Assembly: GCA_023511455.1 (NCBI GenBank)
Contig: JAIMBJ010000016.1
Span: 1-64,000 of the forward strand
Reading direction: 5' to 3'
DNA from: Bacillota bacterium
Lineage (GTDB): Bacteria; Armatimonadota; HRBIN16
Length of the DNA: 64,000 nt
Shown here: one piece after another, positions 3,388-11,810 of the stretch
How the letters are laid out: the number at the start of each line of letters is the position of its first letter
Position numbering within the stretch: position 1 is the stretch's first letter
The notes under the pieces: model-generated
What the model was told of the DNA's origin: nothing
Seen by the model: only the letters and a program-made list of their open reading frames with translations
The model's database searches: none
Position numbers and translations under genes: made by a program

Positions 3388-4194
3388 TCAGTATTTGCTC
3401 AGGAACTGCAGCCCCTGGCGTAAAGACTCTACCACATTTTGCCCGCTTTCGTCTTCCACGGCATACCAGCCGTCGTAGCCGATGGATTTCAGCAGGGCGA
3501 TATACTCATCCCACGGCACTGCCCCCTGCCCGACGGTGGGTCTTTTCGTTTCGGGATGGTGGTCTTTGGCGTGGGTGTGGACGATGTAGGGCGCGAGCTC
3601 GCGCACGCCCTCCAGCACGCCGTACCACAGCAGGTTGGCGGGGTCATAGTTGACCTTCAGTGCGGGGCTGCCGATGTCCTCAATGAACTTGCGCAGCACA
3701 GGCGCAGGCTCCATGCCAGTCTCGATACAGAAGATGCCGCCCACCTTCTCGGCGTGCCGCACTATCTGCTCGATGGCGTCGCGGATGATGGGGTAAATGG
3801 GGTCGTTTTTGTCCTCTGGAATGACGCCCGGGTGGGTGGTGACGATGGGTGCGCCCATATCGACCGCCAGTTCGATACACCGTTGCGTCTTCGCGATGCG
3901 CTCGTCGATGCCTTCCGCTTCATCGAGGCCGCCGAAGCGCGTGGGTCCCGACATCTGCGCGCAGAAACCGCTGATTTGCAGTCCGAAAGATTCCACCCGT
4001 TTGCGCCATTCGGTGCGTTGCGCACCGACGCACACATCGGGGTCCAGCACGCAGGGACCGTAGCTCGCCACGTTCCACAGCTGCACACCCTGAAAGCCGA
4101 TTTCCGCCGCCGTCTGCAGGGCGTTCATCAGCCCCTCTTCCGTCTCCCCTGCCGACAGCGACCACAACGCCACACCAACCTTCAATGAACCCAT
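3388..4194 (-). CDS. Sugar phosphate isomerase/epimerase-like TIM barrel
   Basis: A 268-residue member of the AP-endonuclease-2/xylose isomerase-like TIM-barrel family, which interconverts ketoses or inositols using a divalent metal. Metal-site motifs are visible: CIETGMEP, KVNYDPANLLW, HTHAKDHH and the C-terminal AVEDESG. I start at 4194 (MGSLKVG) because an AGGAGTGGAGAA ribosome-binding site lies just upstream, while the longer frame begins with non-family sequence. It follows the tubulin-like operon after 69 bases and may be separate from it. Substrate unknown; the family is very common in bacteria that use plant sugars. Confidence 0.86.
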   Translation of the reverse strand: MGSLKVGVALWSLSAGETEEGLMNALQTAAEIGFQGVQLWNVASYGPCVLDPDVCVGAQRTEWRKRVESFGLQISGFCAQMSGPTRFGGLDEAEGIDERIAKTQRCIELAVDMGAPIVTTHPGVIPEDKNDPIYPIIRDAIEQIVRHAEKVGGIFCIETGMEPAPVLRKFIEDIGSPALKVNYDPANLLWYGVLEGVRELAPYIVHTHAKDHHPETKRPTVGQGAVPWDEYIALLKSIGYDGWYAVEDESGQNVVESLRQGLQFLSKY

Positions 4195-4263: not shown

Positions 4264-6360
4264 TCAGGGCATCTGGACTTCTCGGCTGCAAATGCGTCCA
4301 GTTACAACGGGCGCATAAACGATGTGGTCGCCGACGGGCACCTGTGTTTGGAAACCGTTACGGTAGGACACTCCGTCCAGCAAAAGTTTCCAGCCCTCAT
4401 CGGGGGGCTTCTCACACGGCCACAGTAGTGCCGTCGAGGATTCCATTGCGTCACGCATCTGTTGGGTCAACCACACCTCGTAGGCGTCTTCACTTCCCAT
4501 GAGATGACGCAAGTAGAAGCGTGGGTCCCGGTATTCGCGCTGCATCCACTGGTTAAGCAGCAGCCTGCGCAGATAATTCTGCACTTCTTCCGCCCTTTCG
4601 AGCAGGTCACTGACCCCACCAATGCCCAGATGCTCCAGTGCCTGCCTGAGAACAGCTTTCAAATCGCGCTTTCCCCAGAGCTCCTGCACGACAGGTACGA
4701 GCTGGCGAAACGAGCGAACAATGAAGCGCACATGTGGGGGAGAAATCAGTACGAACGCTCGCACTGCCGCTTCCCATGAGAGTCTTTTACCCTGCAGATG
4801 CTGCGCCAGCGACTCCACGTTCTCTTGTTCTTCCTGGACCAGAGCAAGCACTCGCTCAAAGGCACTTTTCAAGGCTATGATTGCATGAAAACGCAATATT
4901 TCAGTATGGTAGGAACGCAACTTTTGCAGATAGTTTTCCCAGGCTACTTCCAGTTCCTGTCGTCTTCGGTGGTAGTGCTGACATGCCCAGACTGCTCCTG
5001 CAAGCGGGGGCAGAACCGCAGCGATAGACCAGACAATTTGCACATAACTCACCACGTACGATGATAGCGTCAACGCAAACAGTGAGAGTAGCGCCCACCC
5101 AACTAACGAGACAAGCATCGCCCACTGCAATAGCTCCTGCCACTTGGGCAGGCGTGCCAGGGCATTTTCGAACTGCTGTCTCGCCGATTGAAGGGCTTCG
5201 CTGGAAGGTTCTTTAACCTCTAACTTTGCGATAGTCCAAGCTTCCAAACCCTGTAACAGATGAGCCAAAATAGACCTCATAATCGGAAGGGAACCGACTA
5301 CCGCCAACAAGCTATTCTGCAGCGTGCTCTGCAGGTGTTGTCGGAAACCGTTGACTAACTCGTCCGCAACGGTCCGCAGTGACTGCTCCCAGAGAGGCAG
5401 TTTCTCATTCCGCCACTGCTCGTGCCATGTATCCGCTTCGTTGAGCCAATGATGAGGATCCCGTCCGATAGGTGGGGTGCTATCGATTAAGGAGAGCGTT
5501 AATCCGGCGCCCGCTTTGGCAATATTTTGCAGCGGCGAAATCAGCTTGTGCCACCACCCCTCTTCCTGCGGCAACAGGTCGGTCGGAATTGGTGGCGCCT
5601 CTTTTACTTCGGTGCTGACCAGCTTGAAGACATCAGACAGAAACCAATGCGCCAGCGTGTCTTCAATCTCTGGCAGGGGGAGTACTACCAGCCCAAACCC
5701 TACCGAGCGAGGAGTAGTAGATGAGGGCAAAGGCTCACGAAATAACCAGTGCTCGTTTCCGTAGTCCGCATGTTGAAGCGCAGAAAGCAAGAGATAGGGT
5801 AAGCTCACAGACAGGTCGTCCATAGACAGCATCGAGCCATCGGAGCGCATTCGTCCGATGAGCCAGCGCGAGGCCACCGTTACCCAACGGGTGCTTTCCA
5901 CGCTTTTCAGTGTCGAGTAGATGGGTGAAGAGTCGCTGAACTGCTGATGTATAACCATGACATGCAGTCGGACGGGCACTGGCTCCCGCAAATATGCTGA
6001 ACCTTCGTCCAGCAGATGGACGACTTCGTCTATACTGGACAAGTGTTCGTCATCGAACAACAGCAATGCCTGAACAAAAAGATAGCCACCATCGGGCCCC
6101 ACACTGGCTCCTTCATCCAAAGCGGCTTCAAGGTTGCTCTGCAGGCGTATGCGGTACATCCATTCGGTCAGGGGGTTGACGAAGTTCTCACCTGGGGCGT
6201 TGGGGACGTGTACTGCTTGCAAGCTACCTTTCTGGTAGGCTCCTAAGGCAGTTACGTGCCGGGCGGGCAGGCGGAAAGAACGAAGCAAACGATTCGTCCT
6301 TTCCACCGTCTGGCACGGTAAGTCACCCGCTCCAAGCACTATGGTCGGATATACCACCAT
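4264..6360 (-). CDS. Partner protein of tubulin-like GTPase, central membrane hairpin
   Basis: A 698-residue protein I do not recognise by family. The first 30 residues (TIVLGAGDLPCQTVERTNRLL) look like the opening strand, loop and helix of a Rossmann or tubulin-type fold, but without a clear GGTGSG motif. Residues about 60-250 are mixed alpha/beta. Two strongly hydrophobic helices at about 411-435 and 438-460 form a membrane hairpin, followed by a long charged helical region (465-700). It is the last gene of the operon, 18 bases after the tubulin-like gene, so it probably acts with it as a membrane tether or adaptor. That role is inference from order and topology only. Confidence 0.75.
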   Translation of the reverse strand: MVVYPTIVLGAGDLPCQTVERTNRLLRSFRLPARHVTALGAYQKGSLQAVHVPNAPGENFVNPLTEWMYRIRLQSNLEAALDEGASVGPDGGYLFVQALLLFDDEHLSSIDEVVHLLDEGSAYLREPVPVRLHVMVIHQQFSDSSPIYSTLKSVESTRWVTVASRWLIGRMRSDGSMLSMDDLSVSLPYLLLSALQHADYGNEHWLFREPLPSSTTPRSVGFGLVVLPLPEIEDTLAHWFLSDVFKLVSTEVKEAPPIPTDLLPQEEGWWHKLISPLQNIAKAGAGLTLSLIDSTPPIGRDPHHWLNEADTWHEQWRNEKLPLWEQSLRTVADELVNGFRQHLQSTLQNSLLAVVGSLPIMRSILAHLLQGLEAWTIAKLEVKEPSSEALQSARQQFENALARLPKWQELLQWAMLVSLVGWALLSLFALTLSSYVVSYVQIVWSIAAVLPPLAGAVWACQHYHRRRQELEVAWENYLQKLRSYHTEILRFHAIIALKSAFERVLALVQEEQENVESLAQHLQGKRLSWEAAVRAFVLISPPHVRFIVRSFRQLVPVVQELWGKRDLKAVLRQALEHLGIGGVSDLLERAEEVQNYLRRLLLNQWMQREYRDPRFYLRHLMGSEDAYEVWLTQQMRDAMESSTALLWPCEKPPDEGWKLLLDGVSYRNGFQTQVPVGDHIVYAPVVTGRICSREVQMP

Positions 6361-6378
6361 GAACGCGTCTTCCCAGCC

Positions 6379-9300
6379 TTACCAGTCAGACTTGCGCAAG
6401 AAGTCGATATAGGATTGTATAGCTTTTCGTTGCTCGCTGATGTGGTCCCGAACACGCTTGCTTTCGGTAGCATTCTGCAGGTCCAAGAGTCGCGACTCGT
6501 ACTCTTCCATCTGCTGCAAGATTGACTGCCGTCCCAGCAACTGATGCAGCTGTTGCTGCGCCCGCTTCAGCTCTTCCACCTTGCCTTTGTCATGCAGGAT
6601 CTTGCGATAGGCGACTTTCCAGTCACTGCCCAGCACTTCGCTCTCCTGCTCTATATGCTTGACCAACCGCTTTTGCCATTCAGAAGGCAGTTTTTCCTGA
6701 AGCGCAATCTGCCACTCGCTCTTATACTTGGGTATCAAGTGGTCCTGCCACCTCTGGACGTTGTAGTAGAACGTGTTCCCCCTCAGCGCGATGTAGCCAT
6801 AAGCCAGTGCCCAGCTCCACAGCACCTTGTGTTCTTCCTCCTGTTCTACCGGTTCCAGCAAAGGCAGGCGGTCAAAGAATCGTTTGTCGACATGAAGACG
6901 TGCTCGCACGCCATCTTTTGTGATGCGTCGCTCGTAACAGGTGCGCATGGAACGAGTGCTGCGGAGATAATATGCACGGGCCCCATAGGTGCGGGTCATC
7001 AGGGTAAGCGCAAAGGGATACCCGTCTTCGCGATACTCCACGCGCGTGTAGCCGCGTTTTTCCGCAATCTCGCGAACTTGCTGCCGATATTGGTCAAGCT
7101 CATCTCCATCGGCGCTGCCGTTGCTAGCGTAGGGTATGCTGGCGACCAAAATACTTTCGTATCGCTGTTCGCCGGGGGGCTGGCTGGTGCTCCAGTAGGG
7201 CTGACAGGCGTCAAACAGTATCTGTAACTTCCTGTCAACGTATTCCTTTAGCGGAACGCCGTTTTGCTGTCGTTCCTCCTGGGACTGAAACTTGATTAAC
7301 TCCAGGACGTTAGCGTGCTTTCGCAAGACGGGGCTGAGCACCTCAACCGCTGCAGACAGCCATAGTTGTGCTTCTGTGTCAACGTCAATCTCCGTGCTGG
7401 ACAAATTGCCAAAGGCCGGGTAGTGCTTATAGTTCTGGCGCAGGCGATAGTGCTCTTCCCGTATCTTATCAAAAGATATCTGTGACTTAATGGATTCGTA
7501 GAATCTCGGGAAGTCCTTAGACAGTATCACGAACCACTCCAGGTCGTAGCCATAGTAGCGTGCTCCGTTGGTGTTGCACAAATTCTGCAGGCGCAGACGG
7601 GTATTCTGCTGATGTTGCTGCCAGTGGCTGACCAAATCTGCCCATTCGCTGAGCTGTCCGTGTAACTTCAGTTCCTGAAGAGCACTGAGCGCAATCTCGG
7701 CTGCGAGCGCTTTCAGACGGTGCTGTGCATACTTCCGCAGAGTGTCACACGCTTGCTGCACCTCCTGTTGCAGCTGGTCATTACCCATCCACAGTTCCCA
7801 AACTCTCGGTTTTGCCTGTTTGAGTTGACTGCACGCTTGCTCGAACTCTTGCTCGCAGGTTTTCGCCTGTGCACGCTCCTGCTCGGCGGTCTGCTGAAGG
7901 TCGCGTTGCAATTCGTTCAGGTAGTTTCCCAGATCCACAAAGAACTGACGAGCACGGTCGTGACCGCTAGCTGTCAGAACCTGTTCCGCACGGTTACCAG
8001 CTTCCTTAAGCGCTTTGTCGAATAACGTCCGGGCGCGTTCTTCTAACCGTTGCTTTAGCGAAGGTATCCAATCATTGCCGATGCTATCGAACAGCCTGCG
8101 CAACTCCCGCTCTGCATAGTCCGCTTTTTGCGACAATTTCGTCTGTCCTGCTCCCTCAGCCTCCTGAAGGATTTCCGCCACTTCTTTGGTTTTGAAAGAT
8201 AAGGGGATGCCGTGATCATCCTGAAGGAGGTAATCCGTTACCAGCTCGTTCGTCTCTGTCTGCACCAGATGGTTTGTCTGCACAAAGGTCTTGATTTGCT
8301 GCTGCATGTCGGACCCATGGGATTGAGCGTTCTGAGCCTCCTGATCCATCAGCTCCAGCGCTGAGCGTGCTGCACAGTAGCGGGTCAGCTCCTCAATAGG
8401 CACAGCGAAATTGGTAACGCCCAGCGAGTTCAATAGACGGGGTTGACCCGTTTCCGCACACGGCATCGTCTCAATCACGGCCAGTGAGTTGCGTTTGGCA
8501 CTGCGGGCATGCGCCCCTAACGGAGAGCCTATGTCCAGCATGATGCTGCGCGCAGTCATCTCGAAGACGTAACGTTTGTTGGAGATGGTGTTGCCGCCGC
8601 TGTTGACCCCCTCTACCAGAAACACCTCATCAAACAGGGGCTGCCGAAGTGTGTAGGAACCAATAGTGCGATATGTGAACTCCCACTGGTTGTCTTCTTC
8701 AAAGGTCTTGTGGTTGCAAAGGTACTCCAGCTCCATCAGGCTGGCGTAGCCGTTGGCTTCAATCACCTCCCACATGGATGGGCTGATACCAGCTTCATGA
8801 CGGAACACAGTTGGTAGATAGAAAATACCGACGATTTCTCCGTCCAGTCCATAGCGATCAAAGATGTAACGAATAACTGCTGCGGTGTCCATAAAAATAC
8901 CGGACCCCGTACCGCCACACAGTGAAGAGATAACATATACGCGCGGAATGGACTGAGTAATCTCGACGTGTTGCGAGGCACCCTTCATCATAGCCTGCAC
9001 ACGTTCGCGCACCTGCATGATGTGGTGAATGGCTGGTTCCAGGTAGTTCGTAAAAAGGTTATCAAACGAGGCGTGGAACGCGAAACGCCCTGCGGGGCGG
9101 ATCCCTGCCGCTCCGCTCGCATCTCGCAACAATACCACGTCATTGCTTCCATCCCAAAACTGTTCGAAGTATGGATGCAGCTTGGGATTGCGTCTCAGTT
9201 CGTCAAGGAGCTGCTCCGGGTAGCGCACCGAGATCGGAGCGCGCTCGTGCTGTTCCGCTTTTGCCAGCTCGCCGTCCTGAATGTATTGTGCTTCGTCGGT

Positions 9301-9492
9301 GTCGATGAACAGAAACCGTATCAGGTTATCGACCTGATATCGCTCGTGCAAGATGCGTTTGACGCGCCGTGCGGTCTCTACCCCGCTACCTCCCAGTCCC
9401 ACCACGAGTGTGGGACGAAACTGTCCTCCCTCGCAGTACTGCACTGCCGAGAAAGACTTCTGTACAGCTTGCTGCAAGACATGATTGCTCAT
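6379..9492 (-). CDS. Tubulin/FtsZ-superfamily protein with coiled-coil C-terminus
   Basis: A 1037-residue protein of the bacterial tubulin-like type (Pfam 'Tubulin_2'-like). The N-terminal GTPase region shows VVGLGGSG (31-37), the acidic strand FLFIDTDEAQ (about 60-70) and the tubulin signature GGTGSG at 193-198, preceded by YVISSLC. Roughly residues 420-650 are glutamine- and charge-rich and likely coiled coil, with further helices to the C-terminus; this is about three times the length of FtsZ. The ATG at 9492 has AAAGGAGG seven to eight bases upstream; the longer frame overlaps the upstream gene. It lies between two membrane proteins in one operon, suggesting membrane-linked filaments or a nucleotide switch rather than cell division. 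Confidence 0.87.
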   Translation of the reverse strand: MSNHVLQQAVQKSFSAVQYCEGGQFRPTLVVGLGGSGVETARRVKRILHERYQVDNLIRFLFIDTDEAQYIQDGELAKAEQHERAPISVRYPEQLLDELRRNPKLHPYFEQFWDGSNDVVLLRDASGAAGIRPAGRFAFHASFDNLFTNYLEPAIHHIMQVRERVQAMMKGASQHVEITQSIPRVYVISSLCGGTGSGIFMDTAAVIRYIFDRYGLDGEIVGIFYLPTVFRHEAGISPSMWEVIEANGYASLMELEYLCNHKTFEEDNQWEFTYRTIGSYTLRQPLFDEVFLVEGVNSGGNTISNKRYVFEMTARSIMLDIGSPLGAHARSAKRNSLAVIETMPCAETGQPRLLNSLGVTNFAVPIEELTRYCAARSALELMDQEAQNAQSHGSDMQQQIKTFVQTNHLVQTETNELVTDYLLQDDHGIPLSFKTKEVAEILQEAEGAGQTKLSQKADYAERELRRLFDSIGNDWIPSLKQRLEERARTLFDKALKEAGNRAEQVLTASGHDRARQFFVDLGNYLNELQRDLQQTAEQERAQAKTCEQEFEQACSQLKQAKPRVWELWMGNDQLQQEVQQACDTLRKYAQHRLKALAAEIALSALQELKLHGQLSEWADLVSHWQQHQQNTRLRLQNLCNTNGARYYGYDLEWFVILSKDFPRFYESIKSQISFDKIREEHYRLRQNYKHYPAFGNLSSTEIDVDTEAQLWLSAAVEVLSPVLRKHANVLELIKFQSQEERQQNGVPLKEYVDRKLQILFDACQPYWSTSQPPGEQRYESILVASIPYASNGSADGDELDQYRQQVREIAEKRGYTRVEYREDGYPFALTLMTRTYGARAYYLRSTRSMRTCYERRITKDGVRARLHVDKRFFDRLPLLEPVEQEEEHKVLWSWALAYGYIALRGNTFYYNVQRWQDHLIPKYKSEWQIALQEKLPSEWQKRLVKHIEQESEVLGSDWKVAYRKILHDKGKVEELKRAQQQLHQLLGRQSILQQMEEYESRLLDLQNATESKRVRDHISEQRKAIQSYIDFLRKSDW

Positions 9493-9506
9493 GGCGTAAC
9501 CTCCTT

Positions 9507-10694
9507 TTACGTTAATTGAGTAAAACGCCAATAAGTCCATATCTGAATAATCAACAGGACTGCAGATGCCAATATAAGGGTCCTTTTGAGCCTGGTCGAA
9601 ATCTTGTGGCGAGGCACACGAGTAGAGCCGTCTTTTATACAGGAGGTGTAGTAGATCTTATAACCTCCAGGCAATGACAAAGTGTCATCTTCCTTGACCG
9701 TGTCGGGGATATGTTCGCCGTGTTCTCCAGCAACATGCAGTAATCGCTGCCCGGGTTGTGCGACCAGTTGAATCTTCGCGTTCGGTATGTCGTAGGAGAC
9801 GGGGGCTAGTTTATTAGGCTTGATTTCCACTTTCTGCTCCCCATTCGGCGCGACGATGCGCAGCTCGTGACGATACAACGTTACCTTTTTGCCGGGCACA
9901 AGCAAAGCCACCAGCAGGAGTAACGCAGAGAGATACAGCCATCTCCATGAGACCGTAGTCACATCCACCCACATGTTGTATGGTTCCGATTCAATCCAGC
10001 GTCCATTGCGTAACGTCTGCGCACTAACAAAAAGCTGGTACTTGCCCGGACGAGGAAACTCAATCCGAACAGAAAATTCACTGGAGGGTTTCTCCGGTAC
10101 AACTATACTCGCAGCAGGCTCTGACCAGCAGCGAATGCGCACGTCATCTCGCGTTGGAGTATATGTCCTTTTCTCCGAACCAACAAGCAACATGCCTGAC
10201 AGTTTGCTATGAGAGGTTACACTTGAGTTCGGTTTCGGCGAAACAATCTGCACATAGGGAACCTGTTCTACCGAGAAGGTAACTGTTTCGCTCCACTTCT
10301 CGACACGTGTCCCCCGCGCGATGTCCTGCTGCTCCAAACGAGTTGTCAGGCGGAAACGCCCGGGTTGTTTAATCGTATACTTGTTGGTAAAGATGCCATC
10401 GTTAGCAGCAGAATCAGACTCTATCCCGTCATCACGCAAGGAAACGCGTTCCACCAACCGTCCGTCTTCAGTGAGCAGAACGGCGGTTGCGAAGTAGCGA
10501 ACTGTAGAAGAGGAAGGAGCCGCTCGAACCTCGATGCGGATGGTGGGAGCCGACTGCCCCCATGCATATAAATCCCCATGCCCGGGCGAAATAAACTCGG
10601 GCACAGGAGGAGACTGCTGCGCCAGCACGAAACATGTGCACCACAACCATAACATGCCAGTCAAGACTGTGCAGGATACACCTTGCCTGAACAT
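9507..10694 (-). CDS. Membrane protein with exported beta domains, tubulin-like operon
   Basis: A 395-residue protein, first gene of the tubulin-like operon. Residues 1-25 are a signal peptide or anchor. An exported beta-rich part (about 30-245) includes the RDDG..SDSAANDGIF motif (87-102) seen in 'choice-of-anchor' and von Willebrand A-linked domains. A first membrane helix lies at 252-268 and a small beta domain (270-365, LSLPGGYKIYY) would be cytoplasmic. A second helix spans 371-388. The topology offers a cytoplasmic loop that could contact the tubulin-like protein encoded 14 bases downstream. No von Willebrand A domain is present. Function unknown. Confidence 0.78.
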   Translation of the reverse strand: MFRQGVSCTVLTGMLWLWCTCFVLAQQSPPVPEFISPGHGDLYAWGQSAPTIRIEVRAAPSSSTVRYFATAVLLTEDGRLVERVSLRDDGIESDSAANDGIFTNKYTIKQPGRFRLTTRLEQQDIARGTRVEKWSETVTFSVEQVPYVQIVSPKPNSSVTSHSKLSGMLLVGSEKRTYTPTRDDVRIRCWSEPAASIVVPEKPSSEFSVRIEFPRPGKYQLFVSAQTLRNGRWIESEPYNMWVDVTTVSWRWLYLSALLLLVALLVPGKKVTLYRHELRIVAPNGEQKVEIKPNKLAPVSYDIPNAKIQLVAQPGQRLLHVAGEHGEHIPDTVKEDDTLSLPGGYKIYYTSCIKDGSTRVPRHKISTRLKRTLILASAVLLIIQIWTYWRFTQLT

Positions 10695-11027
10695 GCTACA
10701 CCCTCGCAGGTTATCTCATTTACTTTTACAGACACTCTATTTTATAAAATGTTTCAACAAAAGTCAACCTCATCCTGCCAAAAACCGGAAAAATTGCTTG
10801 CGCAGGGGCAGATAATGACCTTTACCTCTATGCTCTCAGAACGGCAAAAAACCTGAAACATTGCCCCCCGCCTGTGCATCCAAAAAGTGAAAGAGAATCC
10901 GCAGAGCGTTTCCGCGAGGATGTTCGCGACCAGCAGGCTTTCCCGTAGAACAGATGCTCGCCCAGGAGGGTGAGCGAGAGGAACATGTGCTTTCGCGTAC
11001 TTAGAAAGCATGGAGGTTCAATGTACC
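10695..11027. other. Divergent intergenic region
   Basis: A gene-free stretch between the tubulin-like operon (leftward) and the 11028 gene (rightward). It holds the leftward promoter at 10739-10767. No convincing rightward promoter was found; a GATAAT lies near 10811 but lacks a matching -35. Short frames here have no family character. Confidence 0.6.
10739..10767 (-). promoter_or_regulatory. Sigma70-type promoter of the tubulin-like operon
   Basis: On the minus strand a TTGACT -35 box (10762-10767) and a TAAAAT -10 box (10739-10744) are separated by exactly 17 bases in an A+T-rich patch. The predicted transcript start, near 10732, is about 40 bases before the ATG of the first operon gene. 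This is the only strong promoter seen for the three genes. Confidence 0.72.
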
Positions 11028-11810
11028 ATGAGTTACCCTTCCACCTTCCGGTTTTTTTCGCACGTGGAAGTGGATGGTCTGGATGAAGTGCCGTTCGAGG
11101 ATAGCGAGATCCTGCGTCTGCCCAACCCGCAGCGTCTGAAGCAGCTGGAAGACCTGCGGATAGAGTTTCTGAACCGCTGGCAGGCTGGAGATGACATAGA
11201 AGAGGTGCTCACGCGTATCTTTGCCGTGCCAACAGATGCCTTTCTGCCGGCGTTTCCACCGCGCTATATCGTGGGCTATAACGTGCAGTGCCCGGTGCAG
11301 GCAAGGATATTTCGCCGGGTGATGCACGACCTGGACCGCTATATCGCCGTGCTGTCGCGCTTTGCCCTGCGCGTGCGGGTGCTGTCGGTGGCACAGCCGC
11401 TGCCGGAACATCCCGACGGCTATCCCGACATGCCAGGCGTGCTGCGCACCATCCGTTATCTGGGCGATGGACGCTGGCTCCAAGCGGTGCGCGACTTCGA
11501 GCGGGAAAGGCGCGACACCCTGTGCTGGCGATACCTGCCCTGCTCACTGGTCACGGACGGTGCAGTGCCCGAGTCCATGGCGGATGCGCTGGAACTGCTG
11601 TTGTACAAGGCGCAAATCGTGCGTATCCTCGCCAGTGACCCTGTGGGCGAAATGCATGAGGCTGTGGCAGAAGGCGCGGATGAATATGTCCATGCGCTGA
11701 GCAGGCTGGTACAGGCGGTGCGGCGTCGGAGGCGTCAGGAGCGCTTCAAAAAGTTTGCTCTGTCGCCTTGTCGCTATCCTGCGACGAGACGGCAGTGGAC
11801 CACCTCTTAA
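11028..11810 (+). CDS. Hypothetical helical protein
   Basis: A 260-residue soluble protein that I do not recognise. It is rich in charged and aromatic residues, largely helical, with no signal peptide or membrane helix. The last 40 residues are very basic (VRRRRRQERFKKF), which would suit nucleic-acid or membrane-surface contact. I chose the ATG at 11028 because GGAGG lies 11 bases upstream; an ATG at 11010 would include the Shine-Dalgarno itself. It is a single gene closed by a strong terminator. Confidence 0.68.
   Translation: MSYPSTFRFFSHVEVDGLDEVPFEDSEILRLPNPQRLKQLEDLRIEFLNRWQAGDDIEEVLTRIFAVPTDAFLPAFPPRYIVGYNVQCPVQARIFRRVMHDLDRYIAVLSRFALRVRVLSVAQPLPEHPDGYPDMPGVLRTIRYLGDGRWLQAVRDFERERRDTLCWRYLPCSLVTDGAVPESMADALELLLYKAQIVRILASDPVGEMHEAVAEGADEYVHALSRLVQAVRRRRRQERFKKFALSPCRYPATRRQWTTS

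Follow-up and report, generated by a model that had tools for sequence, protein, structure and literature searches.

The window analysed here is a 64,000-nucleotide stretch of an Armatimonadota genome (contig JAIMBJ010000016.1 of assembly GCA_023511455.1). It contains a trio of genes, P1, P2 and P3, which raises the question of what an additional tubulin-like GTPase does beside membrane-associated proteins in a bacterium whose canonical ftsZ lies elsewhere. The results obtained indicate that P2 is a predicted GTPase of the FtsZl1 (Tubulin_2) family, that P3 is most readily understood as a degenerate paralogue of FtsZl1, and that P1 is most simply read as a receptor-type membrane protein derived from the von Willebrand A (vWA) partner of FtsZl1 by loss of its vWA domain. 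The evidence for each protein is presented below, followed by the behaviour of the trio at its chromosomal site and the roles that may be considered for it.

The P2 protein

P2 matched the Tubulin_2 model PF13809 with 183 bits (E 1e-53; curated cut-off 27 bits), and its score against the canonical FtsZ model PF00091 (21.2 bits, E 4e-4) was below the cut-off of 33 bits. The original prediction, made from the nucleotide sequence, that this 1037-residue protein belongs to the tubulin superfamily and that the operon is not a division apparatus was therefore borne out, as the canonical ftsZ is a separate gene of the same genome (G000:C32:20959). The GTP-binding motifs T1 and T4 are both present in P2 and its orthologues, and the T4 loop is retained in slightly varying form by the FtsZl1 proteins of Armatimonadota. 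For the long coiled coil that had also been predicted, the support consists of matches to coiled-coil-type chains at about residues 380-730 in a general profile comparison. The P2 family matched no chains in the PDB beyond coiled coils and, judging by sequence, no family member therefore appears to have been solved. The genome of the window has one Tubulin_2 gene, and Tubulin_2 is present in 84 of the 291 Armatimonadota genomes. The search of phages for P2 gave one weak match, with 24% identity; this FtsZl1-like region is located at MT836542.1:6922-7926, in an unannotated 9.8-kb 'Bacteriophage sp.' record.

Relationship of P3 to FtsZl1

P3 had been described as a membrane protein with a central hairpin. 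The hairpin is present at residues 414-454, but the profile comparisons argue for more than a membrane protein, namely a degenerate paralogue of FtsZl1. When the P3 family (11 sequences) was compared with a diverse set of FtsZl1 sequences (23) using hhalign, 286 columns were aligned in register with a probability of 89% and an E-value of 2.4e-6. The N-domain of P3 alone, compared with FtsZl1 from which the coiled coils had been removed, gave a score of 41.2 (E 6e-5), against 15.1 +/- 2.1 (maximum 19.2) for 60 column-shuffled controls and 19-20 for reversed controls. An FtsZl1 N-domain hidden Markov model (HMM) was also searched over about 980 open reading frames (ORFs) together with reversed decoys. 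The proteins in the P3 position ranked next after the true FtsZl1 proteins, always through the same two segments, and the E-values were 2.7e-7 for P0012, 0.02-0.04 for the P3 of G001, 0.57 for the best decoy and 0.69 for canonical FtsZ. By eye, the start of P3, YPTIVLGAGDLPCQTVERTNRLLRS, is similar to the T1 start of P2, RPTLVVGLGGSGVETARRVKRIL, and a second P3 segment, GFGLVVLPLPEIEDTLAHWFLSDV, to the end of the Tubulin_2 domain, LGVTNFAVPIEELTRYCAARSALEL.

P0012 is encoded by the third gene of the operon in G249 (E 1.6e-12 with the full FtsZl1 profile) and bridges the two families together with its relatives in G261, G255 and G044, which are located directly after an intact FtsZl1 gene. Hydrophobic segments were found in the middle of three of these four proteins, GGTGxG is absent from all four, and the neighbouring FtsZl1 has GGTGAG. 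The N-domain of the P0012-type proteins aligned with FtsZl1 over 305 columns (hhalign probability 97.5%, E 7e-12; global 1.4e-15), with a score of 89.3 compared with a maximum of 18.5 in the null. When these proteins were pooled with P3, the comparison with FtsZl1 gave an E-value of 8e-9 (global 5e-12), and the G261 copy is above the Pfam Tubulin_2 cut-off on its own (29.2 vs 27 bits). The T4 motif GGTGSG is absent from all P3 proteins and from the four bridging proteins; because this loop is missing, P3 is read as a pseudo-GTPase. The bridging proteins represent four other families with this gene order, FtsZl1 followed by a GGTGxG-less paralogue (L173, L181, L182 and L183), and in L181, L182 and L183 the paralogue is followed by a protein of about 350-375 residues with 4-5 transmembrane (TM) segments.

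The homology of P3 to FtsZl1 is thus well supported by profiles, and it is hinted at by structure models. An alpha/beta domain was seen in the models of P3 (pLDDT 75.9 at full length; pLDDT 75.8 and pTM 0.74 for the N-domain), and among the 50 best PDB entries listed by Foldseek for the N-domain, all of them weak, tubulins and BtubA together made up about two thirds and vWA domains about a quarter. The best PDB matches of the full-length P3 model were alpha-pore-forming helical bundles (E 4e-3), which had a root-mean-square deviation of about 30 Å and TM-scores <0.2, and were rejected as helix artefacts. Nothing significant was found for the P3 model in a viral fold library, and no P3 was found in plasmids.

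Architecture and probable origin of P1

P1 has a hydrophobic N-terminus (signal segment), an exterior domain of the immunoglobulin (Ig)-like/choice-of-anchor X type (NCBIfam NF041940, E 5e-10), and two TM segments at residues 248-266 and 373-391, which support its predicted association with the membrane. The loop between the TM segments has Arg/Lys-rich ends, and its residues from about 267 to 370 make up a cytoplasmic beta domain. No match to a vWA domain was obtained in P1 or P3, although FtsZl1 operons mostly (not always) carry a vWA protein. The operon had been predicted to be without a vWA partner, and none is encoded in it, but P1 itself looks like such a partner from which the vWA domain has been lost. 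Directly upstream of FtsZl1 in G225 there is an 802-residue protein (L172:2461-4869) with the order vWA-Ig-TM-FHA, in which the vWA domain was matched at 6.8e-18, the P1-like Ig repeats at 8e-19 by a P1 profile whose match spans both the Ig and TM parts, and FHA at 0.014, which is below the cut-off. In G249, a P1-like protein without a vWA domain has a cytoplasmic part, LLLGNHPRADIKLP, that resembles FHA when read by eye. Because of these two proteins, P1 is most simply taken as the vWA partner minus its vWA domain, with a cytoplasmic domain that is probably FHA-like in a degenerate form. The comparison of P1 with an alignment of six vWA partners gave no convincing similarity (probability 10%), and the link is made solely through G225.

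Distribution and probable exchange of the trio

The synteny search upheld the prediction of a conserved trio, as the same three genes, equally ordered, were found in several Armatimonadota families. Among the congeners, the trio is present with unchanged order and strand in G009, G004, G001 and G005, and P1-P2 is present up to the contig end in G002. In family f31 it was found in G212, G200 (where P1 was detected by tblastn), G211, G197, G204 and G202, in unrelated gene neighbourhoods. P3 occurs in 16 of the 291 Armatimonadota genomes, which represent six genera and four families. The representatives of GTDB were scanned with the P2 alignment, the 11-row P3 alignment being too little conserved for scanning; 11 loci in metagenome-assembled genomes were obtained, and those with a lineage in the title are Armatimonadota (Fimbriimonadales/Fimbriimonadia, Chthonomonadia). 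In G005 (L036, a few-contig assembly), all three genes are split by frameshifts, which are likely sequencing errors, with real decay as the alternative. Relatives of the trio proteins were also observed in G032, where L038:8880-19820 encodes a P1 relative, a STAND-TPR ATPase (PADLOC 9e-31), a small OB-like protein, FtsZl1 and a Cas4-like PD-(D/E)XK nuclease.

In the window the trio is located between two border genes of a variable site. These genes are adjacent, about 290 bp apart, in G001 and G004, and the trio of both genomes is located elsewhere. In G003, to which the window genes mostly show 80-97% identity, the same interval is occupied by a different FtsZl1 operon that consists of P0005 (an exported membrane protein with a vWA-like look), P0004 (FtsZl1), P0006 (ZorA/MotA-like) and P0007 (ZorB/OmpA-like), followed by an 89-residue ORF (L049:16008-16277). 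The PADLOC models matched the two motor-like genes at 1.1e-8 (ZorA-like) and 1.2e-8 (ZorB-like). In the 89-residue ORF, 50-60 residues match the C-terminus of P3, and this ORF is apparently a remnant of a replaced trio. The motor-bearing operon was observed at L049:9062-15964 in G003 and at L051:10745-17823 in G004, and the FtsZl1 encoded there has GGTCSG.

The trio proteins are 34-57% identical to their same-genus orthologues, compared with typically about 90% for the neighbouring genes; the exception is the C-terminus of P3, which is 87% identical in the closest genome, G007. The G+C content of the trio is 53.7% versus 59-61% for the flanks, and the GC3 is 0.55-0.64 versus 0.70-0.81. The copies at the same site in G009, G002 and G005 are 66-85% identical among themselves in P2, and the trio of the window is as distant from them as it is from copies at other sites. 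It is because of this equal distance that exchange of the window trio at the site is considered likely but not proven. The broader proposal, that every trio at this site results from a recent allelic swap, lost support, since the G009, G002 and G005 copies differ as a fast vertical lineage would, and vertical but fast evolution may well explain them. The trio looks like an accessory, exchangeable cassette, which suggests a conditional role, in stress or conflict, and not housekeeping division.

Operon layout and promoter

The trio genes are all on the minus strand and, as had been predicted, are tightly spaced, with 14 bp between P1 and P2 and 18 bp between P2 and P3. The P2 start at 9492 is taken as correct because AAAGGAGG is immediately upstream and the alternative longer ORF, from 9540, overlaps P1.

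Table 1. Position and strand of the trio genes, their domains and motifs, the promoter and the border genes in the window.
Feature	Position	Strand	Remark
P1 (395 aa)	9507..10694	-	receptor-type membrane protein
P2 (1037 aa)	6379..9492	-	FtsZl1/Tubulin_2 family, predicted GTPase (PF13809 1e-53), putative coiled coil, conserved C-terminal domain
Tubulin_2 domain of P2 (residues 29-381)	8350..9408	-	PF13809 match
T1 loop GLGGSG (P2 residues 32-37)	9382..9399	-	invariant in trio family
T4 GTP-binding loop GGTGSG (P2 residues 193-198)	8899..8916	-	motif in sequence
P3 (698 aa)	4264..6360	-	probable degenerate FtsZl1 paralogue (putative pseudo-GTPase), without GGTGSG
N-terminal alpha/beta domain of P3 (residues 1-262)	5575..6360	-	probably related to Tubulin_2 domain
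Central membrane hairpin of P3 (residues 414-454)	4999..5121	-	hydrophobic segment; missing in family f31
Sigma-70-type promoter TTGACT-17-TAAAAT	10739..10767	-	45 nt upstream of P1
TIM-barrel-type flanking gene	3388..4194	-	left border of variable site; 88-97% identical in congeners
Conserved flanking gene (266 aa)	11010..11810	+	right border of variable site

A strong promoter had been proposed upstream of P1. The hexamers are present, but by count alone promoter-like sites are not above chance (6 found vs 4.0 +/- 2.1 expected). The promoter is supported because a -35/-10 pair, likewise spaced by 17 bp, precedes P1 in three same-genus orthologues (L033, L037 and L034); in L033 and L037 the surrounding stretch is nearly identical, although the proteins are <50% identical to those of the window. 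The sequence GAAACATT is present in the P1 promoter (10742-10765) and upstream of the divergent 266-residue gene (about 10850-10860), and is also kept in empty sites. It is a possible shared operator or junction.

Proposed mechanism and alternative roles

We give about an even chance to the reading in which the trio is a variant FtsZl1 system, a receptor-gated tubulin GTPase that would form an assembly at the membrane together with a pseudo-GTPase partner. P1 would be held in the membrane with its Ig-like domains outside and its beta (FHA-like) domain inside, would sense an envelope event, and would signal to P2 through the cytoplasmic domain. GTP-bound P2 would then assemble on or beside P3, a duplicated and degraded FtsZl1 that, without hydrolysing GTP, may act as membrane anchor, as cap or as nucleator, comparable to alpha-tubulin as the fixed partner of beta-tubulin, and the P2-P3 assembly would act on the membrane. 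The content, order and conservation of the trio, the family of P2, the lack of T4 in P3 and the variation at the site are direct observations. The homology of P3 and the origin of P1 are supported by profile comparison; the assembly, the direction of signalling and the role of the trio are what we infer from them.

Several observations weigh against this reading. The hairpin segment is entirely absent from the P3 of family f31; the hairpin is accordingly lineage-specific and no defining part of P3, and the predicted membrane-GTPase-membrane order does not hold as a general rule. Structure prediction gave an alpha/beta N-domain for P3 and a weak list made up mostly of tubulins, in which vWA folds are also found, but no Foldseek match at E <= 0.001 (TM-scores about 0.2-0.37). 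The direct similarity between P3 and the P0012-type family is modest (probability 38%, E 3e-4), and FHA remained below threshold throughout P1 and its relatives. In addition, a second P1-P2 pair in G211 (L174:6394-10750, C20) is followed by no recognised P3, so that P3 may be dispensable.

A conflict or defence role, in which the cassette would respond to phage or to envelope attack through a tubulin assembly that damages or seals the membrane or blocks infection, is possible, though we hold it to fall short of probable. It is mainly a claim about role and is compatible with the receptor and tubulin-pair reading. The presence or absence of the trio at one site, its faster divergence than the flanks and its low G+C are consistent with this role, as are the G032 relatives that are encoded with the STAND-TPR ATPase and the Cas4-like nuclease, and the G003 operon with its ZorA-like and ZorB-like genes at the same site. 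ZorA and ZorB are motor parts of the Zorya anti-phage system. However, no trio protein matches the PADLOC defence models, which only the G003-type replacement operon does; non-defence genes also ride accessory islands, structural coevolution can give fast divergence, and many f31 genomes retain the trio. The accessory distribution and the motor-bearing replacement nevertheless lead us to lean slightly to a conflict role. A wider proposal is a class of bacterial tubulin systems that serve, as exchangeable units, against phages or in conflict between bacteria. In it, a membrane-linked pseudo-GTPase tubulin would be paired with an active tubulin GTPase under an Ig-FHA or vWA-Ig-FHA receptor, and such a system would be interchangeable with a Zorya-type ion-motor version; we hold this to be speculative and rather unlikely.

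A membrane remodelling or cytoskeletal machine, in which P2 filaments anchored by P1 and P3 would bend the membrane or form vesicles, is somewhat unlikely. The tubulin family protein shares its operon with membrane proteins, and remodelling, the idea put forward for this locus, had already been proposed for FtsZl1 in 2010 (PMC2875224). On the other hand, the P3 hairpin is not conserved, FtsZl1 is described in PMC2875224 as being without recognisable T6-H7 filament elements, and a sporadic distribution with exchange is not what is usually seen for a basic cellular machine; nothing in the present results favours remodelling over a role in conflict or in sensing at the envelope. A filament-free system for envelope sensing or transport signalling, with P2 as a GTP-dependent switch scaffold between the exterior receptor and an output, is quite unlikely: P1 and its relatives have an Ig-like exterior and an FHA-like interior, and the reviewer Jekely argued for such an alternative in PMC2875224, but the trio contains no kinase, transporter or output gene. 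Finally, it is very unlikely that P3 joins helices to an alpha/beta domain of other descent, such as a vWA-like one. Although vWA folds are among the weak Foldseek matches and pLDDT is <50 at residues 198-255 of the N-domain model, the profile evidence links P3 to FtsZl1 through two distinct segments that follow each other in the expected order, no similarity to the vWA-partner alignment was found (score 15.0 vs 41.2 to FtsZl1), and the bridging proteins align across the whole domain.

Comparison with known systems

FtsZl1 proteins have been known since 2010 and occur in most bacterial lineages and some archaea. The family was described by Makarova and Koonin as one of unknown function, with membrane remodelling proposed and filament formation left open (PMC2875224). 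As described there, FtsZl1 is similar to the trio in having an N-terminal FtsZ-like domain with T1 and T4, a coiled coil (putative in P2) and a helical C-terminus, in being encoded in an operon with exported membrane proteins, and in coexisting with canonical ftsZ. The trio differs in that no vWA domain is encoded in the operon and the third gene is a GTP-loop-less FtsZl1 paralogue. What appears to be new here is the tubulin/pseudo-tubulin pair with a vWA-less receptor, the FtsZl1 family itself being known. Nothing on pseudo-GTPase FtsZ paralogues was found in the open-access literature searched, nor was such a pair and receptor, although the supplementary families A1-B9 of PMC2875224 may include the third gene as an uncharacterised family. 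A degenerate tubulin partner would be a concrete, testable reason for the seemingly missing filament-contact elements, as assembly would take place with a dedicated partner. With a site that is empty in some genomes and taken by a motor-bearing FtsZl1 operon in another, the general proposal of 'membrane remodelling' can be recast as a testable claim of conditional or conflict function.

When compared with the vWA partner of FtsZl1 (vWA-Ig-TM-FHA, for example L172:2461-4869), P1 aligns with the Ig-TM-FHA part and occupies the same place upstream of FtsZl1, but it has no vWA domain, and degeneration has taken its cytoplasmic domain out of reach of the FHA model. The likeness to Zorya, a MotA-like and OmpA/MotB-like pair (ZorA/ZorB) beside FtsZl1, applies to the G003/G004 operon only; the window operon has no such motor genes, and ZorC, ZorD and ZorE were not found in a search that was not exhaustive. 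Canonical FtsZ (PF00091) is a distant superfamily relation of P2, and the division FtsZ is another gene. In BtubA/BtubB, as in alpha/beta-tubulin, two tubulin-type proteins are encoded or used together. By analogy, the two tubulin-type proteins of the trio suggest a mixed assembly, which would differ in that one partner is without T4 and has a membrane hairpin. If this pairing is correct, the trio would represent a tubulin system with a permanent pseudo-GTPase as one of its subunits.

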